Assembly: GCA_022821065.1 (NCBI GenBank)
Contig: JAJEEK010000055.1
Location: forward strand, 1-64,000
Reading direction: 5' to 3'
Source: Candidatus Poribacteria bacterium
Lineage (GTDB): Bacteria > Poribacteria > WGA-4E > WGA-3G
Length of the DNA stretch: 64,000 bases
A model generated the notes under the pieces. The model had not been told where the DNA came from. It saw nothing but the letters and a program-made list of their open reading frames with translations, and did no database searches. The position numbers were made by a program, and so were the translations under genes. Below, piece after piece: positions 1 through 8,904 of this stretch (the stretch's first letter is position 1; each line of letters opens with the position of its first letter).

Positions 1-1
1 T

Positions 2-724
2 GAAATTCAGACGGATGATAGCCGGTCTCCGAACATGGTACGTCGAAACGTCGGTTATCTCGGTAGATGTTATGAAAAATACGGTCTGCCTATCTATTCT
101 TTTGTGCTCTATCTGCGTTCAACAGCTGGACACACAGATCCGGGCGGTTATTTTCAAAATGTTCCCGGACACCGTTTCATCGTTGAATATCAAGTCATTC
201 ATTTAAGCGAAATTGATGGACAATCTATTCTTGAAGCGGCACAACCGGGTCTAATGCCGTTTACGCCCTTGATGAAGCCACCTGCCGGTATGTCAGAGAT
301 GGAGTGGACTACACATTGCGCGGAGGTAACCCAATCTTTGCCACTGGACACCGCGAGACGGAATAATTTACTCGTAGAACTATGGGTCATGAGCGGCTTA
401 GCACATAACCGCCAAAATCTATTATCATTGATTCCGGAGGATATTATGAACAACTCATCTGTTTACCAAATGATTATTGAACGCGGCATTGAAACCGGCA
501 TCGAAACCGGTAAAAGGCTGGGAATGCGAGAACTTGCTATCGAAAATATCCTATATTCACTCAATCACCGTTTCAATATATCTATGACAGCAGACGTTTT
601 GACCCCTTCGTTAGAAAAGGTTAACGACCGACAACATCTCAATCAATTAATGAGGGCAGCAACAGAGGTAGAGCATATTGAAGAATTTATGCAGCTGCTG
701 GATTCTCTCCAAAACGGCACCTAA
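2..724 (+). CDS. Rpn family PD-(D/E)XK nuclease / putative transposase, 5'-truncated by window edge
   Basis: The frame is open from base 2, so the gene starts upstream of the window. The first visible residues contain an E-I-Q-T segment that fits the E-x-Q part of the PD-(D/E)XK nuclease core, followed by an R-x-L-G-Y-L-x-R-C-Y stretch and a hydrophobic strand (Y-S-F-V-L-Y-L), as in Rpn (recombination-promoting nuclease) proteins. The C-terminal half is helical, with the repeated I-E-x-G-I-E-T-G-I-E-T-G segment typical of the tail of this family. Rpn proteins are DNA endonucleases that are abundant in repeat-rich genomes. Biological role here is unknown. The family call rests on pattern recognition only. 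Confidence 0.7.
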   Translation, partial: EIQTDDSRSPNMVRRNVGYLGRCYEKYGLPIYSFVLYLRSTAGHTDPGGYFQNVPGHRFIVEYQVIHLSEIDGQSILEAAQPGLMPFTPLMKPPAGMSEMEWTTHCAEVTQSLPLDTARRNNLLVELWVMSGLAHNRQNLLSLIPEDIMNNSSVYQMIIERGIETGIETGKRLGMRELAIENILYSLNHRFNISMTADVLTPSLEKVNDRQHLNQLMRAATEVEHIEEFMQLLDSLQNGT

Positions 725-730
725 CTTATT

Positions 731-967
731 TAGGGCTTACGCATGATGCGCTTTCGTACCACAAACTTCATGAGGTTCAATTTATTAATTCGGTAATTTA
801 TTGGCGAAGTCCGGTGCGGTTGCAAACCGCACCTACCGGGCCTCGGGAAGATATAGAATTACCGAAATATTTATTTATTCTTCATACAGTTTATGCTGCA
901 AGAACGCTATGTTTTACGAAAAATTCCATCTAATACAACTGTCTACTGTCAAAATTGCGTAAACCCT
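731..967 (-). repeat. Dispersed MITE-like repeat, family A (copy 1), interrupted by a family B palindrome
   Basis: This copy is in reverse orientation. It begins with GGGCTTACGCATGATGCGC and ends with AATTGCGTAAACCCT, matching the ends of other family A copies (consensus end AGGACTTACGCA). The middle, about 785-880, is replaced by an unrelated AT-rich block carrying a family B palindrome (GGTGCGGTT/AACCGCACC), so one repeat has inserted into another. No gene is seen in the gap from 725 to 1061. Confidence 0.7.
803..847. repeat. Small palindromic (REP-like) repeat, family B
   Basis: The core GGTGCGGTT-GCA-AACCGCACC is a 9-bp stem followed by the tail TACCGGGCC. Similar units occur at about 3011-3044, 5625-5670, 9051-9089, 21318-21345 and 43088-43128, always outside intact genes. 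Confidence 0.75.
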
Positions 968-1061
968 GATTTGTTGAAGCACTGAATTCTTGGTTCCTTA
1001 TTATAGTAAAGCCCGCAAATAATTTGACATATTCTAAGATTTATGGTATCCTCTAAGTCTT

Positions 1062-1400
1062 ATGAGTTATTCATCAGATTTCCGCAAATGCGTCCTTGAC
1101 TTCGTTGATAATGGCGGTAGTAAAGCCGAAGCTTCACGACGGTTTGGTATCTCTCGAGGCATCATCTATGAGTGGTTGGATGCTCAAGACCCGTTGACTT
1201 CTAAGAAACCGGGGCCTCAAGGTCCTCGAAACATCGATTATCAAGCTTTGAAGCAACACGTTGCCGATTTCCCCGATGCCACCCAGCAGGAGCGTGCTGC
1301 TCATTTTGGCGTTTCAAAACATGGTATTTGGTATGCGTTGAAAAAACTGAATATCACGCGAAAAAAAAGACGACGACCTACAAAGAACAGTGTCCCGTAA
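1062..1400 (+). CDS. IS630 family transposase, N-terminal HTH frame (orfA)
   Basis: The 112-residue product has a helix-turn-helix (residues about 17-40: S-K-A-E-A-S-R-R-F-G-I-S-R-G-I-I-Y-E-W) and a second HTH-like region near 70-95, as in the DNA-binding half of Tc1/mariner-type transposases. The frame ends just after a run of eight A residues at 1361-1368, which reads A_AAA_AAA in this frame, a classic -1 slippery heptamer. The catalytic half continues in the -1 frame. A -1 slip would give a fusion of about 277 residues. Confidence 0.85.
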   Translation: MSYSSDFRKCVLDFVDNGGSKAEASRRFGISRGIIYEWLDAQDPLTSKKPGPQGPRNIDYQALKQHVADFPDATQQERAAHFGVSKHGIWYALKKLNITRKKRRRPTKNSVP

Positions 1401-1894
1401 AACGCCAAGAGTATCTCTCGGCGCTTCAGCAAGAGATAGAAAACGGCAAAAAACTGGTTTATATTGACGAGAGTGGTTTCAGTAAGACGGCTTTCCGTCG
1501 GTATGCTTATGCGCCGAAAGGAGAGTGTGTTGAAGCGAAAGTGGCAAGTCATCGGTATAAGACGACGACGTTGATAGCGGCGCGTCTTGACGGTTGTTTC
1601 ACTGTGCCTCTGCTTTTCGAGGGTAGTTGTGATAAGATTGCGTTCAACACTTGGCTTTCGGAGATGTTGTCTCCTTTGCTAACTGATAAGCACGTTCTGA
1701 TTATGGATAATGCGTCGTTCCACAAAGGTTCGGAGACGGCGGCGTTGATCCGGGATTCGGGTGCGAGTTTGTTGTTTTTACCGCCTTATTCGCCGGAGTT
1801 GAATCCGATTGAGAAGGATTTCGCCAACATCAAACGGATACGTCAATACAACGCTGAGACTTCTATTGATGATATTATAAAAGTGTATAATTAA
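1328..1894 (+). CDS. IS630 family transposase, DDE catalytic frame (orfB)
   Basis: This frame carries the DDE superfamily core: Y-I-D-E-S-G-F (first Asp), L-I-M-D-N-A-S-F-H (second Asp), and P-P-Y-S-P-E-L-N-P-I-E (final Glu). It lies in the -1 frame relative to orfA and overlaps it; its only upstream start candidate is a TTG inside orfA, so it is most likely made as an orfA-orfB fusion by slippage at 1361-1368. Catalytic residues look intact, so the element may be active. Confidence 0.85.
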   Translation: MVCVEKTEYHAKKKTTTYKEQCPVKRQEYLSALQQEIENGKKLVYIDESGFSKTAFRRYAYAPKGECVEAKVASHRYKTTTLIAARLDGCFTVPLLFEGSCDKIAFNTWLSEMLSPLLTDKHVLIMDNASFHKGSETAALIRDSGASLLFLPPYSPELNPIEKDFANIKRIRQYNAETSIDDIIKVYN

Positions 1895-1918
1895 TTATGG
1901 GCTTTACTATAAAACGAT

Positions 1919-1957
1919 AAACCGCCGATCACATAGTTGTAGTTGGCGGTTTTTTTT
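1919..1957 (+). terminator. Intrinsic terminator downstream of the IS630 element
   Basis: A stem AACCGCC/GGCGGTT with a loop of about 18 bases is followed by a run of ten T on the + strand. It lies just outside the right inverted repeat of the IS and between two convergent genes; the other side has only a weak T-rich tract. Confidence 0.6.
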
Positions 1958-1975
1958 TTGCGTATCCTGAACTTT

Positions 1976-2173
1976 TTAGATAGCGTTATATAATTGCTCT
2001 TTATATGCCTTAATGAGTTCTGCTTCAAATTCTTGCCAGATTTCTAACTTGCGCCAATTCGATACAGTTGCCTCAGTAAAACCGAGCGTGTCGGCGATTT
2101 CTCGGTTGCCTTTACCTTCAAATGACATCTGGCAGGCCATTAGCACCTGTTTTGTACTCACTCTCTTTGGCAT
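1976..2173 (-). CDS. Small helix-turn-helix protein (terminase small-subunit-like HTH)
   Basis: The product is 65 residues from the ATG at 2173. I prefer this start because a G-rich stretch (GGGGG) lies about 8 bases upstream; an alternative ATG at 2188 has no Shine-Dalgarno. Residues about 20-43 (G-K-G-N-R-E-I-A-D-T-L-G-F-T-E-A-T-V-S-N-W) form a clear HTH like that of phage terminase small subunits or phBC6A51-type proteins. It is very short, either a trimmed relic or a stand-alone DNA-binding protein. Three tandem consensus promoters with an adjacent inverted repeat lie upstream, which suggests a strongly transcribed and perhaps autoregulated gene. Function is unknown. Confidence 0.6.
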   Translation of the reverse strand: MPKRVSTKQVLMACQMSFEGKGNREIADTLGFTEATVSNWRKLEIWQEFEAELIKAYKEQLYNAI

Positions 2174-2226
2174 GCCAAACACCCCCATCCGTTAAAATTA
2201 GCGTTTCTAATGACTAACTACCTTTA

Positions 2227-2255
2227 ATTATACACGGTAAAAAAAGATTTGTCAA
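2227..2255 (-). promoter_or_regulatory. Consensus sigma-70 promoter, copy 1 (proximal)
   Basis: On the minus strand TTGACA (2250-2255) and TATAAT (2227-2232) are separated by 17 bases, a perfect consensus. It points at the small HTH gene. The inverted repeat ATTAGAAACGCTAAT (2197-2211) covers the expected early transcribed region, an operator-like position. Confidence 0.85.
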
Positions 2256-2392
2256 GAGAAATCCAATTTATTTTTGATTTAACGGTAATTAAAGCATTTT
2301 AGATACAACTTTTCGAGAAAAATTTGCGAAAATGGCGTCGGAACATCGATCCACTTCCATCAAATTAGCGTTTCTAATGACGAATTACTTTA

Positions 2393-2421
2393 ATTATACA
2401 AAATAAATGACTATTTGTCAA
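2393..2421 (-). promoter_or_regulatory. Consensus sigma-70 promoter, copy 2
   Basis: TTGACA (2416-2421) and TATAAT (2393-2398) with a 17-base spacer on the minus strand. The same inverted repeat ATTAG-N5-CTAAT lies at 2364-2378. Confidence 0.8.
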
Positions 2422-2559
2422 GAGAAATCCAATTTATTTTTGATTTAACGGTAATTAAAGCATTTTGGATACGATTTGTCAAGAAAAAATTTGAGAAAAT
2501 GGCGTCGGAACGCCGACACCTTTCCGTCAAATTAGCGTTTTTAATGATTAGTTACCTTA

Positions 2560-2588
2560 ATTATACAAAATAAATAATGATTTGTCAA
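2560..2588 (-). promoter_or_regulatory. Consensus sigma-70 promoter, copy 3 (distal)
   Basis: TTGACA (2583-2588) and TATAAT (2560-2565) with a 17-base spacer on the minus strand. The inverted repeat at 2531-2545 has one mismatch. Confidence 0.8.
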
Positions 2589-2626
2589 TATAAATATAAT
2601 TTTATTTTGATTTATTTGGAATTATA

Positions 2627-2966
2627 TAGGAATTGTGCAATTTTGGATGTAGGTGGTTTTGTTAGATGAAATTTGTCTGAAAACACAGCGTTCTGATAGC
2701 ACAAACTGGAAGTTTGTGGTACATTAAAGAGCCGCATGCGCAAGTTGTAAAGATAAATTTGGGAAAAAGTGGGGAGGGGAGGGGCTGTCGGCTATCGGTT
2801 GTCGGCTATCGGAAATCATCGGTAAGAAAGGGCAGCTTTAATTAATAGGACTTACGCAATTTTGGATGTGAACCGTTGTGTTAGATGAAAGTTTTTGTCC
2901 AATCCAGCGTTTTTGCGTCACAAACTAACAGTTTGTGGTACATAAAGAGCCGCATGCGTAAGTTGA
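2627..2966 (+). repeat. Two family A MITE-like repeats in a gene-free stretch
   Basis: Copies lie at 2627-2747 and 2846-2966. Both run from (A/T)GGA(A/C)TT-GCAATTTTGGATG to GCATGCG(C/T)AAGTTG and contain the inner palindrome CACAAACT/AGTTTGTG. Between them is a low-complexity run of alternating CGGCTATCGG and TGTCGG motifs (about 2785-2825) that recurs near 19560-19700 and 53685. No gene is seen from 2189 to 3057. Confidence 0.75.
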
Positions 2967-3010
2967 AAACCGAACCTACCGGGCCTGGGAAAGGCACTAA
3001 ATTGACACCT

Positions 3011-3044
3011 ATGGTGCGGTTACAAACCGCACCTACCAGGCCCG
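3011..3044. repeat. Small palindromic repeat, family B
   Basis: GGTGCGGTT-ACA-AACCGCACC with tail TACCAGGCC. A half unit (CGAACCTACCGGGCC) lies just upstream at about 2971-2985. Confidence 0.7.
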
Positions 3045-3057
3045 ATTGACTTTTACG

Positions 3058-3273
3058 CTACTTATCTTCTTCGGTTAGGTTGTAGCGTCGGCGGAAGCTT
3101 TCGACCCGTCCAGCAGTGTCGATGAACCGCGCTTGTTGTCCGGTGTAGAATGGATGGCATTTTCCACAGATGTCTACCCGCATTTGGGATTGGATTGCCA
3201 GCGTTTTGTGCGTTGCACCACAAACGCATGTGATGACGCTTTCTACGAGTTCAGGATGAATTTCGGCTTTCAT
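3058..3273 (-). CDS. rpmE: 50S ribosomal protein L31
   Basis: The 71-residue product has the usual L31 length and begins M-K-A-E-I-H-P. It has a zinc-binding pattern: C17-V-C19 and C37-x-x-C40, followed by the family hallmark H-P-F-Y-T-G. This is the zinc-containing C+ form. It lies about 230 bases downstream of rho on the same strand; a rho-rpmE order is common in bacteria. An AAGGAAGG sequence precedes the ATG. Confidence 0.97.
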
Positions 3274-3504
3274 AATGTCCTTCCTTAAATTTGAGATTTC
3301 CGAATTTAGATTTTCGATTCAGCTTACATTCCGTATAATATAACGCAAGTTTCCATTTCAGAGTGATGTGATTGTTGGGTTTCGCTATCGCTCGCTATGA
3401 GAACGATATATCACCAGATGGAATCCTCTGTAAAAATGAAGACTTTTGAATCTTCAACGCTCAACCCAACCTACATCTACTTCATACAGTCTGTGCTACA
3501 AATT

Positions 3505-4836
3505 CTATCGTTTGGCGCGGGCGTTGATTCTGGTTGTCGTATTGTTACCATAGTTGGCATTGTCAACCATCCGTTCGAGGAATTCCGCGTTTGTGGTATT
3601 CTTGCCGAGCTGCTCAATAAGCATTTCGAGGGATTCCGCGCCGTCCATTTGGCTTGTGAATTTCCGTAGCACCCAGACCTTATTAAGTACATCTGGTGCT
3701 AACAAGAGTTCTTCACGTCGTGTTTTTGATCTTTTGATGTTAATGGGTGGATAGATTTGGAGATCCAGTAAGGCGCGCTCCATGTGGATTTCCATGTTAG
3801 CGGTACCTTTAAATTCTTCGTAGATATATTCGTCTTGTCGGCTCTCCGTATCAATGAGTACGGATGCGATAACCGTTAGGCTTCCGCCTTCTTCAAATTT
3901 CCGAGCGGCGCCGCAGAATTGGCGTGGTTTCACGAACGCCATAGCGTCTAAACCGCCGCTCAACGTTTTTCCACTGTGGGGTGCCATGACGTTGTGTGCG
4001 CGTGCCAATCGGGTCATGCTATCCAGCAGTACAACGACATCTTTCCCGTATTCAGCCCATCGTTTCGCTTTCTCGATGACCATTTCTGCGACTTGGATGT
4101 GCCGTTCTGGGTGTTCATCGAACGTGGAGCTGATGACTTCACCTTTCACGGAGCGTGCGACATCCGTAACTTCCTCGGGTCGCTCGTCGATCAGGAGAAA
4201 GATGAGAATGACTTCCGGGTGGTTGGCTTCGATACCGGCGGCAATATTTTTCAGGAGTGTCGTTTTTCCGCTATAAGGCGGTGCGACAATCAGTCCACGT
4301 TGCCCTTTGCCGATCGGTGCGATGAGGTCCATCATCCGCGTCCCGAATTCCGAACCGTTGTATTCGAGTTTCAATTGTTCGTACGGATGGATGGGGGTGA
4401 GGTTCTTGAAAAGGATTTTCTGTTTGACAGCTTCCGGGGGTTCCCCGTTGACCTTCTCAATTTGTAGCATTGCGAAGTAGCGTTCCGCCTTGTTTTCTGT
4501 CTTTTTCGGTGGACGAATTACACCTTCAACGACATGACCGGTTTGTAAGTCGAATCGTCGGATTTGCGAAGAGGACACATAAATATCCTCGTTGCTTTGC
4601 AAATAGTTGGAACGCGATGAGCGGAGAAAACCGTAGTGTTGATCCCTGTCATCTAAAATTTCCAGGACACCACCCCCGTAGAATTGGGTGTCTCCCTCAG
4701 ATTTAGCCTCTATGATTTCGTTAATGAGCTCTTCTTTGCGGAGTCCGGTATATTCGTCGACTCCGAGTCTCAGGGCAAAATCTTTGAGTTCCGAGAACTC
4801 CATTTCTTGGAGCTTGCGAATGTCCAAGCTCTCCAT
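3505..4836 (-). CDS. rho: Transcription termination factor Rho
   Basis: The 443-residue product is the ATP-dependent RNA helicase that ends transcription. The N-terminal helical Rho-N region (about 1-45) is followed by the RNA-binding cold-shock-like domain (Y-G-F-L-R at 68-72). Walker A is A-P-P-Y-S-G-K-T (185-192), where many Rho proteins have A-P-P-K-A-G-K-T. Further downstream are L-L-I-D-E-R-P-E-E-V-T-D, Walker B-like V-V-V-L-L-D-S-M-T-R-L-A-R-A and the secondary RNA-site region S-G-K-T-L-S-G-G-L-D. The C-terminus is intact. A consensus promoter lies about 700 bases upstream of the start. Confidence 0.98.
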   Translation of the reverse strand: MESLDIRKLQEMEFSELKDFALRLGVDEYTGLRKEELINEIIEAKSEGDTQFYGGGVLEILDDRDQHYGFLRSSRSNYLQSNEDIYVSSSQIRRFDLQTGHVVEGVIRPPKKTENKAERYFAMLQIEKVNGEPPEAVKQKILFKNLTPIHPYEQLKLEYNGSEFGTRMMDLIAPIGKGQRGLIVAPPYSGKTTLLKNIAAGIEANHPEVILIFLLIDERPEEVTDVARSVKGEVISSTFDEHPERHIQVAEMVIEKAKRWAEYGKDVVVLLDSMTRLARAHNVMAPHSGKTLSGGLDAMAFVKPRQFCGAARKFEEGGSLTVIASVLIDTESRQDEYIYEEFKGTANMEIHMERALLDLQIYPPINIKRSKTRREELLLAPDVLNKVWVLRKFTSQMDGAESLEMLIEQLGKNTTNAEFLERMVDNANYGNNTTTRINARAKR

Positions 4837-4931
4837 AGTTTCTAATACTCCTCATAGAATAATGTATTGAATTTGTTTCTATCGTTTTCGGTGCGCGGTT
4901 AAATACCACGTCCGCACGGTTTCCTAATAGT

Positions 4932-5080
4932 CAGGACTTACGCAATTTTGAGCGTAGGCGGTTCTGTTAGCCCCCCTGTATCCCCCTGCAAGCGGGGGGT
5001 TAGGGGGGTTGGAAAATACAGTGTTTTGGCAGCACAAACTCAAAGTTTGTGGTACGAAAGAGCGTCATGCGTAAGTCCTA
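4932..5080 (+). repeat. Family A repeat with a nested C/G-rich hairpin
   Basis: It runs from CAGGACTTACGCAATTTTGA to CATGCGTAAGTCCTA. At about 4970-5011 the usual middle is replaced by a nested hairpin built from CCCCCCT/AGGGGGG and CCCCCTG/CGGGGG arms. A related C/G-rich unit lies at about 53789-53823. Confidence 0.75.
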
Positions 5081-5535
5081 AGCGTGCTGAACATGAGCAG
5101 CACAGAGAAACTAAGGCGCGAAGACCGGGGTTTCCTACAAAGCCGATTCGTTTGGACTCCAATCGGGTACATGAGACTTCTGAAGATGCGCTTGCAAGTG
5201 GCGCGTTCGGCCGTTAAGATGCCCAACGAAGTAAAATGCAGGGTGTACAGCGGTATCGGTGGAGTCGGTGCAATGTTGCCCGCAGGGATGTTTCTTGTAT
5301 GGTCGTGTCACAACGCATGCCAAAATAGGGTTCGCTCTAAGTGGGACAGTTTCCTTACCATATTGGTGGAACATACTGAAGCGTATACCGCATACATCGC
5401 TTTACAGTTAGGGATCCGTTTTCTTCAAAGCATGCGTTTTTCAGGAGTTCGCACGATTTCATCAGCAAAATCTACCAATTTTAGCTTTAAACGTGCTTAC
5501 GTTAGGAAGTTACGAACTTTTTCAACATTAATTAT
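5081..5535 (-). other. Unexplained transcribed region upstream of rho
   Basis: The gap between rho and the TPR lipoprotein gene is about 850 bases. Apart from the repeats at 4932-5080 and 5625-5670, it contains about 450 bases of balanced composition downstream of a near-perfect minus-strand promoter (5531-5558). The short frames on both strands (for example minus 5135-5374 and plus 5084-5545) match nothing I recognise and have no convincing ribosome-binding site. It could be a long rho leader, a small RNA gene, or a decayed gene. I saw no RNase P, tmRNA or SRP RNA signature. Confidence 0.4.
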
Positions 5536-5558
5536 ACACAATTGATTGTAAATGTCAA
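5531..5558 (-). promoter_or_regulatory. Sigma-70 promoter upstream of the rho leader region
   Basis: On the minus strand TTGACA (5553-5558) and TATAAT (5531-5536) are 16 bases apart. It fires toward rho; no other gene lies between. Confidence 0.7.
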
Positions 5559-5624
5559 GTTTTTTTTGAAAAAAAACGGTTATTTGGGAAAATTGGGTGT
5601 CTAAATCCGGTATTTTCGGATATT

Positions 5625-5670
5625 CGGCGAAGTCCGGTGCGGTTAGAAACCGCACCTACCAGGCTTGGGA
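5625..5670. repeat. Small palindromic repeat, family B
   Basis: GGTGCGGTT-AGA-AACCGCACC with the same GGCGAAGTCC leader as the copy at 803-847. Confidence 0.75.
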
Positions 5671-5688
5671 AAGCTGCACGCTTTTGAC

Positions 5689-7701
5689 CTATTCTTCCGG
5701 TTCTTCGGCATCGCCTTTCAATTTTTTAAGGCTCCGCGTAACGTTCTGGTTGTACTGGTTTTCGGCAAGAAAACCTTCCCACAGTGCGATCGCATCATCA
5801 TTAAAACCTTGCGAAACGTAATAGTCGCCGAGGGCAATCACTGCGATATCGGAGTGTGGCGACTTCTCAATTGCGGTTTTGAATTCGGCGATAGCTGTTT
5901 CGGTATCGTTATTGAGCAGGGCTAATTCACCTCTACCGTAATGGATTAAAGCGTGGTCAGGGTATTCCGTCGCCAGTTCATCTATCATCTGTTGCGCGTC
6001 TTCGGGTTTCCCGCGCTGATGGGTTGCCTGTGCTGCCAGGATTGTTGCATAGACGACCTGATTGCGAAGTTCCCGTTTTTCAGCATCACTTTCTGACTTC
6101 CCCAGCAACCGTTTCGCTGTCCGAGCGGCGGCTTTATACCGTGCGTTCGCTTGGACGTAGTTGCCGTACTTATAGGTGAGGTCGCCGAGGGTTTTTGAAC
6201 CGATGTACGAATCGCCTTTCTGATCGACGAGGTCTTGGAAAATTGCAGCAGCTTTGCGGTCTTTCAACCGATAATGTAGTACTTCGGCGAGGCTTTGCAA
6301 CGCGTCTGTATTCTGTGTATTCGCGGCAACGGAACGTTCGAGTACCTCGCGCTCCTTTTCTGGGTCACCCAATTTCTTGTGTGCAAGCGAGATTAACCAG
6401 TAGACTTCGGAATCCTTATCTCGTCTTAACCCGATAACGGAATTGTAGGTTTCGATAGCGTTCTCGTAGTTTTCGGAGGTATAGTGATTCCGTCCTGTAT
6501 TAATGACCGCGTCAATGACTTCACCATCTCGGCTTGCGGCTTTTCGGAGTACCTCTTTTGCTCGCTGATGCATCCCGACTTTTCGGTAGCAGATCGAGAG
6601 TTTGAGGTATGTATACGGGTCGATTTTCACTTTTTCGGCTTCTGCGCGTGCGATTGCGTCGTAGTAAAGCGCGCCTGCGTCTCGGTAATTTTCATCGCCG
6701 TAGAAGAAGTTAGCAATCATGAGTTCAGCATCGTGGAAGCTGCCCTGATCATCGCCTGCGATACCGGCTTGTCCGCCGAAGTTCTGCATAACATCCGATG
6801 CGCTGATCCCGAATCCGGAGTCTGGTACGCCGAGCGTGTTGGCATTTCCCATAGCGGGACTTCTTTCGACCCCGCCGCGCGGTCGATCGCGTTCACGGCG
6901 TGCTTCAAATTGTGCGATTGCTCTCCCTTGTGGCGTTGCCAGTGGGTCATCGGGTTCAGGGATGGTCGCGTTGAGGTCTTTGAGTTCCTGTTTCGCGCTC
7001 TCGACGGCTGCTTCAGCACCTTCAACCTTTCCATATCTCTTAACGAGCATCTGGTTGGTTCGTTTCGCTTCTTCTTCGTCTTTGAGGAATTGGCGTTGGA
7101 TTCTTGCTTTATTTTCGAGTGCGGGTGCGGCGCGTTTATTTCTCGGGTTCCGATTCGCGAAGTTATCGAACGCTTCTACGGCTGATTCGTAGTCTTCCGC
7201 TTCCTCATAACTCTTCGCCAACATGAGGTGTGCGTTGTGGCTTAATTCCAATTGCGGAAAGTCGTTCACGATCGCGTCAAATTGCGTTTGCGCTGACTTG
7301 AAATCCTTTTCCCGAAAATAGTGCATACCGAGTTCATAGTGTGCTTCGGCGGCTGCCTCGCTTTCCGGTGCAGCGGCGATGACGCTTTCATAAGCCTTAA
7401 TGCCTTCCGTCGGTTGGTTCATCTGTCCAATAGACAATTTACCGATGGCGAGTTGTGCTTGCAGCGCGTCTGGCGTACCGGGTTGTGTATCCACAATATT
7501 TTGGTATGCTTCAACTGCGCCGTAGTAGTCTTTGTTATCAGCGAGTTTGTCGGCGTTACTTAGCGCACTTCCGGGTAAGCATCCGATTTGCGATGCTGCT
7601 ATCAATAGGATAGCGATAAGTGCGCAATAGTTTATACTTTTAAAGGCAAGTTTTTGCCAACGATAATAAGTTTTGGTTGCGGGTTGTCGAAAAAAAATCA
7701 C
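5689..7701 (-). CDS. TPR-repeat lipoprotein
   Basis: The 670-residue product starts at a GTG with a good AGGAGAG site. A signal sequence of about 40 residues (hydrophobic I-N-Y-C-A-L-I-A-I-L-L-I-A-A) ends in a lipobox A-S-Q-I-G-C, so it should be lipid-anchored. The rest is tetratricopeptide repeats: a BamD/YbgF-like block from about residue 50 to 190 (Y-G-A-V-E-A-Y-Q-N-I-V, F-K-S-A-Q-T-Q-F-D-A-I-V) and a second array from about 320 to the end, ending in an acidic tail. A low-complexity linker lies near 235-310. Such proteins usually scaffold envelope complexes; no specific partner is evident. Confidence 0.85.
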   Translation of the reverse strand: MIFFRQPATKTYYRWQKLAFKSINYCALIAILLIAASQIGCLPGSALSNADKLADNKDYYGAVEAYQNIVDTQPGTPDALQAQLAIGKLSIGQMNQPTEGIKAYESVIAAAPESEAAAEAHYELGMHYFREKDFKSAQTQFDAIVNDFPQLELSHNAHLMLAKSYEEAEDYESAVEAFDNFANRNPRNKRAAPALENKARIQRQFLKDEEEAKRTNQMLVKRYGKVEGAEAAVESAKQELKDLNATIPEPDDPLATPQGRAIAQFEARRERDRPRGGVERSPAMGNANTLGVPDSGFGISASDVMQNFGGQAGIAGDDQGSFHDAELMIANFFYGDENYRDAGALYYDAIARAEAEKVKIDPYTYLKLSICYRKVGMHQRAKEVLRKAASRDGEVIDAVINTGRNHYTSENYENAIETYNSVIGLRRDKDSEVYWLISLAHKKLGDPEKEREVLERSVAANTQNTDALQSLAEVLHYRLKDRKAAAIFQDLVDQKGDSYIGSKTLGDLTYKYGNYVQANARYKAAARTAKRLLGKSESDAEKRELRNQVVYATILAAQATHQRGKPEDAQQMIDELATEYPDHALIHYGRGELALLNNDTETAIAEFKTAIEKSPHSDIAVIALGDYYVSQGFNDDAIALWEGFLAENQYNQNVTRSLKKLKGDAEEPEE

Positions 7702-7767: not shown

Positions 7768-8904
7768 TTAGTAGCACGATCTGGCGGCGCATTCATCAAT
7801 CAGTGCCAAAACGTCCTGCCGTGTGTACCCCTCTTTCTGAATGAGGGTGTCGCAGTTGACCCTATTTTTCTCGTCAGGACCTCTACCGGCTTCAAGGATT
7901 GCGTTCGTCAACCAGCTGGTGCGTATCCCGTTGATGCCGGAGGTGTAGTTCGCCTCGTATTCGCCTTTCACCAAGCCGACGAGTTGATCGACTTTGCTAC
8001 TCGGATAGCCTTCCGGGCGCGGGTAAGTAAGCGGTTCTGGCTCACCCCCCTTCGGGATATACTGAATCCCACTTTTGATTTCAATCGTGCCTTCGTCACC
8101 CTCAAGAATCACCCATTCCTCAAATCCGACGCGTGTGTTACCGAGGATGGTAATCGTCCCTTCGGCACCGTTATCGAGCATTACATCGGAATAGGAATTG
8201 ATTTCGACGAACTTCGGAACGAGGTTACCGTCATCGTCCTCAAACTTCATGTCGGTTGTTCCGTAGACTTCAGCGGGTAATGCGCCCGTCATCCATAGGA
8301 ATATATCTTGGAGATGGCTGCCGGAGTCGTTGGGTTGACCGCCGCCGGAGAAGCGTGGATCGCCGCGCCAACCGCCAGCCCCCCATCGTTGCGCCATGTA
8401 GACCTCGAATTTCTTTAAGTTTCCGATGCGTCCTTCGGCGATTGCGCGTCTCCCTGCCATATAGGTATCTTGATAGTGTCGTTGATATCCGCCGACGAGG
8501 TGTAACCCGCTGCCCATCGCTATTTTGGTGATGGAGATGGCATCACCGACGACGTTTGCCATCGGTTTCTCGACGATGACGTGACAGCCTGCGCGCAGTG
8601 CGTATTTGACATGAATATCGTGCAAGGAATGTGGTGAAAAAACGCCGACGATGTCAAGGTCTTCGTGATTGAGCATCTCAACGAACTCGTGTTCGCCGAG
8701 GTAGCGGGTGAAGCTATTCGGTTTATAGCCGTCAACTCTCTCGCGAAGTGCGCTCTCTAAAGCATCCAAGCTGCCTTCGTAGGCATCCGCAGCGGCGACG
8801 ACTTCGGCATCTGGTCGGGTTGCGAAACCGAGCGTGTTGCCACGTCCTGCACCGCCGGGTCCAATCACGCCGACTCTCAAAATATCATTCTTGCTGGTTG
8901 CCAT
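7768..8904 (-). CDS. Gfo/Idh/MocA family NAD(P)-dependent oxidoreductase
   Basis: The 378-residue product has the N-terminal Rossmann fold (V-G-V-I-G-P-G-G-A-G-R-G-N), the family's E-K-P motif (H-V-I-V-E-K-P-M-A), and a C-terminal substrate-binding half with G-G-G-Q-P-N-D-S-G-S-H, whose D and H sit where catalytic residues are expected. Members oxidise or reduce sugars, inositols and related polyols; the substrate cannot be read from the sequence. A GGAG site precedes the ATG. It appears monocistronic. A weak promoter (TTGACT-N17-TAGACT) lies near 8965-8995. Confidence 0.9.
   Translation of the reverse strand: MATSKNDILRVGVIGPGGAGRGNTLGFATRPDAEVVAAADAYEGSLDALESALRERVDGYKPNSFTRYLGEHEFVEMLNHEDLDIVGVFSPHSLHDIHVKYALRAGCHVIVEKPMANVVGDAISITKIAMGSGLHLVGGYQRHYQDTYMAGRRAIAEGRIGNLKKFEVYMAQRWGAGGWRGDPRFSGGGQPNDSGSHLQDIFLWMTGALPAEVYGTTDMKFEDDDGNLVPKFVEINSYSDVMLDNGAEGTITILGNTRVGFEEWVILEGDEGTIEIKSGIQYIPKGGEPEPLTYPRPEGYPSSKVDQLVGLVKGEYEANYTSGINGIRTSWLTNAILEAGRGPDEKNRVNCDTLIQKEGYTRQDVLALIDECAARSCY

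Follow-up and report, generated by a model that had tools for sequence, protein, structure and literature searches.

Why should the gene of a 65-residue helix-turn-helix (HTH) protein be preceded by three tandem promoters of perfect consensus? The question is raised by a 64,000-nucleotide stretch of a Candidatus Poribacteria genome (contig JAJEEK010000055.1, positions 1 to 64,000), here called the window. A sequence-only reading had seen the promoters, each followed by what it took for the same inverted repeat, and had proposed either a self-repressing or switch-like circuit or a promoter array amplified by duplication. According to our analysis, the locus is probably a tandem-duplicated promoter array, kept under selection, that transcribes the small HTH gene as a single-gene unit, and an orphan member of a module to which a surface protein with a lamin-tail domain (LTD) belongs.

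The three promoters match TTGACA-N17-TATAAT at 12 of 12 positions and all point at the ORF at 1976-2188 (Table 1). They are carried by direct repeats spaced 166-167 bp apart, whose units are 81-88% alike among themselves. The array and its direction were thus as first described, and its origin by duplication is borne out by the likeness of the units, by related loci with other unit lengths and by a duplicated HTH 5' end at the related locus L129. The promoter-like site of the middle unit was absent from the sequence-only reading. Perfect promoters with a 17-base spacer are common in this genome (92, against 0 for a reversed-pattern control). In a survey of perfect promoters only, read off the pattern lists, same-strand clusters of less than 200 bp were found just in the window (three promoters), on contig C72 (three) and on contig C87 (two). 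C72 encodes an HTH protein 81% identical to that of the window together with a surface-protein gene, and C87 has a decayed surface-protein gene. The stacking, which had been called unusual, is so within this genome. It is less exceptional in the genus, since there are tandem strong promoters elsewhere in it. A closely stacked strong promoter pair, TTGACATTCACGAAAATTGTGGGTATAATTAAT..TTGACA, is also conserved across several genomes and species of the genus (e.g. L187, L197, L208).

Table 1. Position of the array, the HTH gene and neighbouring features in the window.
Feature	Positions	Strand	Basis and remarks
IS630-type transposase (presumed), two overlapping frames	1062..1894	+	ORFs; many relatives have an LTD gene there
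Terminator-like hairpin and T-rich tail 3' of HTH gene	1909..1950	-	Fold; similar hairpin after L119 homologue
65-aa HTH protein gene	1976..2173	-	ORF, homologues, dN/dS, AlphaFold2; alternative upstream ATG at 2188
Repeat unit, proximal copy	2195..2361	-	Repeat comparison
Inverted repeat ATTAG-N5-CTAAT, proximal, exact	2197..2211	.	Operator role unsupported
Proximal perfect promoter TTGACA-N17-TATAAT	2227..2255	-	Pattern match; hexamers identical in L119
Repeat unit, middle copy	2362..2528	-	Repeat comparison
Inverted repeat ATTAG-N5-CTAAT, middle, exact	2364..2378	.	Operator role unsupported
Middle perfect promoter TTGACA-N17-TATAAT	2393..2421	-	Pattern match; hexamers identical in L119
Second promoter-like site, middle unit, TTGACA-N17-TTTAAT	2454..2482	-	Unit alignment and sequence; common to single-unit relatives; decayed in proximal unit
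Terminator-like hairpin between distal and middle promoters	2501..2520	-	Not clearly retained in other unit
Repeat unit, distal copy, partial	2529..2624	-	Repeat comparison
Inverted repeat ATTAG-N5-TTAAT, distal, imperfect (4/5 pairs)	2531..2545	.	Pattern match
Distal perfect promoter TTGACA-N17-TATAAT	2560..2588	-	Pattern match; hexamers identical in L119, where the spacer is 16

The nearest relative of the window locus, L119 (genome G063), has the same three promoter copies and an HTH protein 94% identical. Between the two loci none of the 36 hexamer positions is changed, against 61 of 326 in the rest of the region, about 19% divergence (Fisher P 0.0016; simpler estimate 7e-4). Because of this difference we judge the promoter hexamers of the array to be under selection, on the comparison of one sequence pair.

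The HTH ORF probably starts at its second ATG, which has the Shine-Dalgarno sequence GGGGGTG and gives 65 residues. The ratio dN/dS is about 0.05-0.15 in most comparisons (dS is saturated in that with L120), and the gene is, on these ratios, under purifying selection. Since a terminator-like hairpin follows the gene both in the window and in L119, we read it as a single-gene transcription unit. AlphaFold2 predicts four helices (mean pLDDT 93.3). Fold matches are weak, all with E above 0.1, phBC6A51, LuxR-type domains and KorA among them, and family searches gave no named family above its cut-off (PHROGs has none). The scores for phage terminase small subunit and phBC6A51 families stayed below those required for membership (Phage_terminase 18.0 against a curated cut-off of 22 bits, Terminase_5 17.2 against 20.3, TerS 21.8 against 120). 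The protein has the HTH core in common with the phBC6A51-type phage protein (PDB 2ao9, one of the best fold matches, with a TM of about 0.6) and with the HTH domains of terminase small subunits, models of which are among the top sequence matches; it is the shorter protein, and we noticed no packaging genes alongside. The KorA/TrfB repressor of plasmid RK2 is also of a small HTH type and matches the protein weakly in both sequence and fold (E about 0.3-0.8). However, KorA is longer, the match is not significant, and no KorA operator was identified at the window.

A search with the HTH protein through 85 genomes of the phylum gave matches in 25, mostly of the same genus, and the named records among the closest homologues are Poribacteria MAGs. 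Where the sequence downstream of a close homologue can be read, there is in most cases the gene of a giant secreted LTD protein on the same strand, 190-400 bp further on. Such a gene follows the HTH gene shortly 3' at L120, L122, L124, L126, L127, L129, L130, L132, L005 and L007, and likewise follows the more distant HTH genes of L134-L136; the window, L119 and L133 are among the loci that depart from this pattern. The giant proteins share a conserved leader (MSNRLTFSLASL...) and a conserved C-terminus, and a lamin-tail domain was found in all six that were scanned. Two to four strong promoters precede the HTH gene in most loci with enough sequence; some have one, as do L121, L132, L135, L136 and L112, where it lies close to the gene. 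As the unit length differs by locus (about 167, 83-85, 200-220 or 141 bp), the duplications would have been separate. The sequence-only reading had suggested looking for its unit beside homologues elsewhere: L119 has the same three copies, and the other loci carry units of their own length. It had also held that units without the HTH gene would speak against it, and this was found in part, in the form of related tandem arrays. Via the RNA element described below, five LTD genes were found that lack an intact HTH gene; each has two tandem promoters, and one of them (L170) retains an HTH remnant. Since these genes also have tandem promoters, the arrays appear to accompany the surface genes, with the HTH gene optional.

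Some loci have features of their own. At L129, about 200-290 bases 5' of the HTH gene, a duplicated HTH 5' end, now decayed, lies between two promoters and is nearer to the window HTH than to its own. We considered whether the window spacers are also HTH 5'-end remnants, which was not supported (p 0.02-0.98 in single comparisons); for L129 such a remnant is clear. At L099 (G080:C1:1430000-1449000), two HTH copies in inverted orientation (7986-8153 and 12081-11932) flank an LTD gene and could permit inversion or exchange. L100-L110 (genomes G073 and G068) carry many near-identical copies of a distant HTH subfamily. In the three G073 copies with upstream sequence (L101-L103) the gene lies just 3' of a conserved C-terminal coding end; in G068 the contigs end 30-60 bases before the gene.

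Many sister loci contain one more component. Upstream of them, a strong promoter is followed by an element of roughly 127 nt with a consensus structure of 38 pairs (L007:4767-4893 region, L121, L128, L129, L131, L132 and others). With a covariance model, 22 copies were detected at E 1e-5, spread over 14 of the 38 genomes that represent the genus; beyond the genus, a search at E 1e-3 gave none. Among 25 aligned matches, both partners have changed in 17 pairs, where shuffles give 5.2; the alignment was fitted to the covariance model and so leans towards structure. Where enough sequence is available, the gene that follows a copy is mostly an LTD gene, and in some cases that of another secreted protein or an unrelated gene. 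Rfam gave two weak sub-threshold matches to viral families on the sister loci, which we take as chance. The genome of the window has the element only on contig C84, twice (C84:44766-44892 and C84:618-746).

The order of the module in related Poribacteria would thus be an optional structured RNA, one to four strong sigma-70 promoters, an optional small HTH gene and a giant secreted LTD surface protein. The window has the tandem strong sigma-70-type promoters; the RNA element is not present in it, and in place of a downstream LTD gene on the same strand there are another ORF and a transposase, which from our reading of its sequence we take to be of IS630 type. The window copy is therefore assigned to the module by homology. 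A run of A near the frame junction of the transposase suggests frameshift expression. On the other side, a dispersed repeat with inverted arms (ACAAACT..AGTTTGTG; 2626-2946) adjoins the distal promoter unit and recurs on other contigs.

What, then, keeps the array? In the self-repressing circuit, a dimer of the HTH protein would bind ATTAG-N5-CTAAT just 3' of each -10 box and limit its own expression. The repeat had been reported as the same in every copy; it is exact in two, while the distal copy has four of five pairs. L129 and L132 also have it exact in their proximal copies, its position after the -10 box is near-constant, and the predicted protein is compact and could dimerise through its long C-terminal helix, with DNA-binding regulators among its nearest, though weak, fold matches. 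However, the arms differ between the window and L119 at 5 of 30 positions, which is the background rate given above, no compensated change was found in 11 copies compared across relatives, and the repeat is missing at loci with a nearly identical recognition helix. Taking all these promoters together, 23% have a 5-bp dyad within 36 bases downstream of the -10 box, compared with 19% after shuffling and 20% for control promoters from the same genome, so dyads are not clearly enriched. With arms as variable as their surroundings, no compensated change and hardly more dyads than in shuffles, the operator is unsupported; an operator conserved with the promoters, as expected of an autorepressed HTH regulator, was not found. 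Self-repression via this repeat is not favoured as the mechanism, and we regard it as unlikely. A wider regulon was also sought with ATTAG-N5-CTAAT-N14-ATTATA (up to 2 mismatches), but the pattern gave no sign of one, with five sites in the genome against four for the reversed control; two of the five are in the window and the three elsewhere have 2 mismatches. A different cis motif, ATATTAAG-N-CAAAA, is shared by 21 of 40 promoters from HTH loci and by 0 of 30 control promoters, with 1 expected by shuffling, but it was picked from these very sequences and the loci are related by descent, which makes it a lead only.

The array could also be a neutral by-product of duplication at a spot rich in mobile elements, with only the proximal promoter mattering. 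The dispersed repeats upstream and the IS630 element downstream agree with this, as do the decay of the second promoter-like site among the unit copies and the decayed HTH duplicate of L129. But the six hexamers of the three copies are all unchanged amid about 19% divergence, and arrays of differing unit length recur at many loci, so we think this explanation improbable, about as much as self-repression. Far less probable still is that each unit makes a short RNA, with a promoter, a short transcribed region and a hairpin stop. Between the distal and middle promoters a terminator-like hairpin (GGTGTCGGCGTTCCGACGCC then ATTTTCT, 2520-2501) could indeed stop transcripts from the distal promoter, and in sister loci a strong promoter is followed by a structured element. 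However, L119 and the middle unit have this hairpin in a weak or altered form, and Rfam gave no match in window positions 1-6000.

Duplicated strong promoters maintained for high output are thus the most likely explanation. We hypothesize that a promoter-containing segment was tandemly duplicated, giving a strong array that selection has kept, and that the stacking would raise or buffer transcription. The HTH protein may bind in or near such promoter regions, either its own or, in trans, those of LTD loci; a regulatory role of this kind is what we infer for it. It is tempting to go further and propose that the window HTH is a stand-alone, strongly expressed regulator acting in trans on arrays that precede giant surface proteins throughout the genome, and that the structured RNA, which has no match in Rfam, takes part in the same system, though we hold this extended scheme to be rather unlikely.

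Genes of S-layer and cell-wall proteins with multiple promoters are known, such as the cwp operon of Bacillus brevis, in which strong promoters in series serve an abundant surface protein. The sister loci of the window array resemble these genes in having several strong promoters in series before a surface protein. They differ in that the poribacterial promoters are repeat units of locus-specific length, in that a small HTH gene may separate the array from the surface gene, and in that the window copy has no surface gene. In the literature searched we found no published description of the poribacterial promoter/HTH/LTD module, nor of the control of host-facing proteins in Poribacteria, which are uncultured sponge symbionts.

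In summary, this locus is a case in which the promoter hexamers appear to be kept in every copy of a duplicated array but a tempting operator-like repeat is not. The module of stacked promoters, optional regulator, covarying RNA and giant LTD protein offers concrete, testable sites for the control of surface proteins. If the HTH protein does act in trans together with the structured RNA, this would be a previously undescribed control system for the cell surface of a symbiont.
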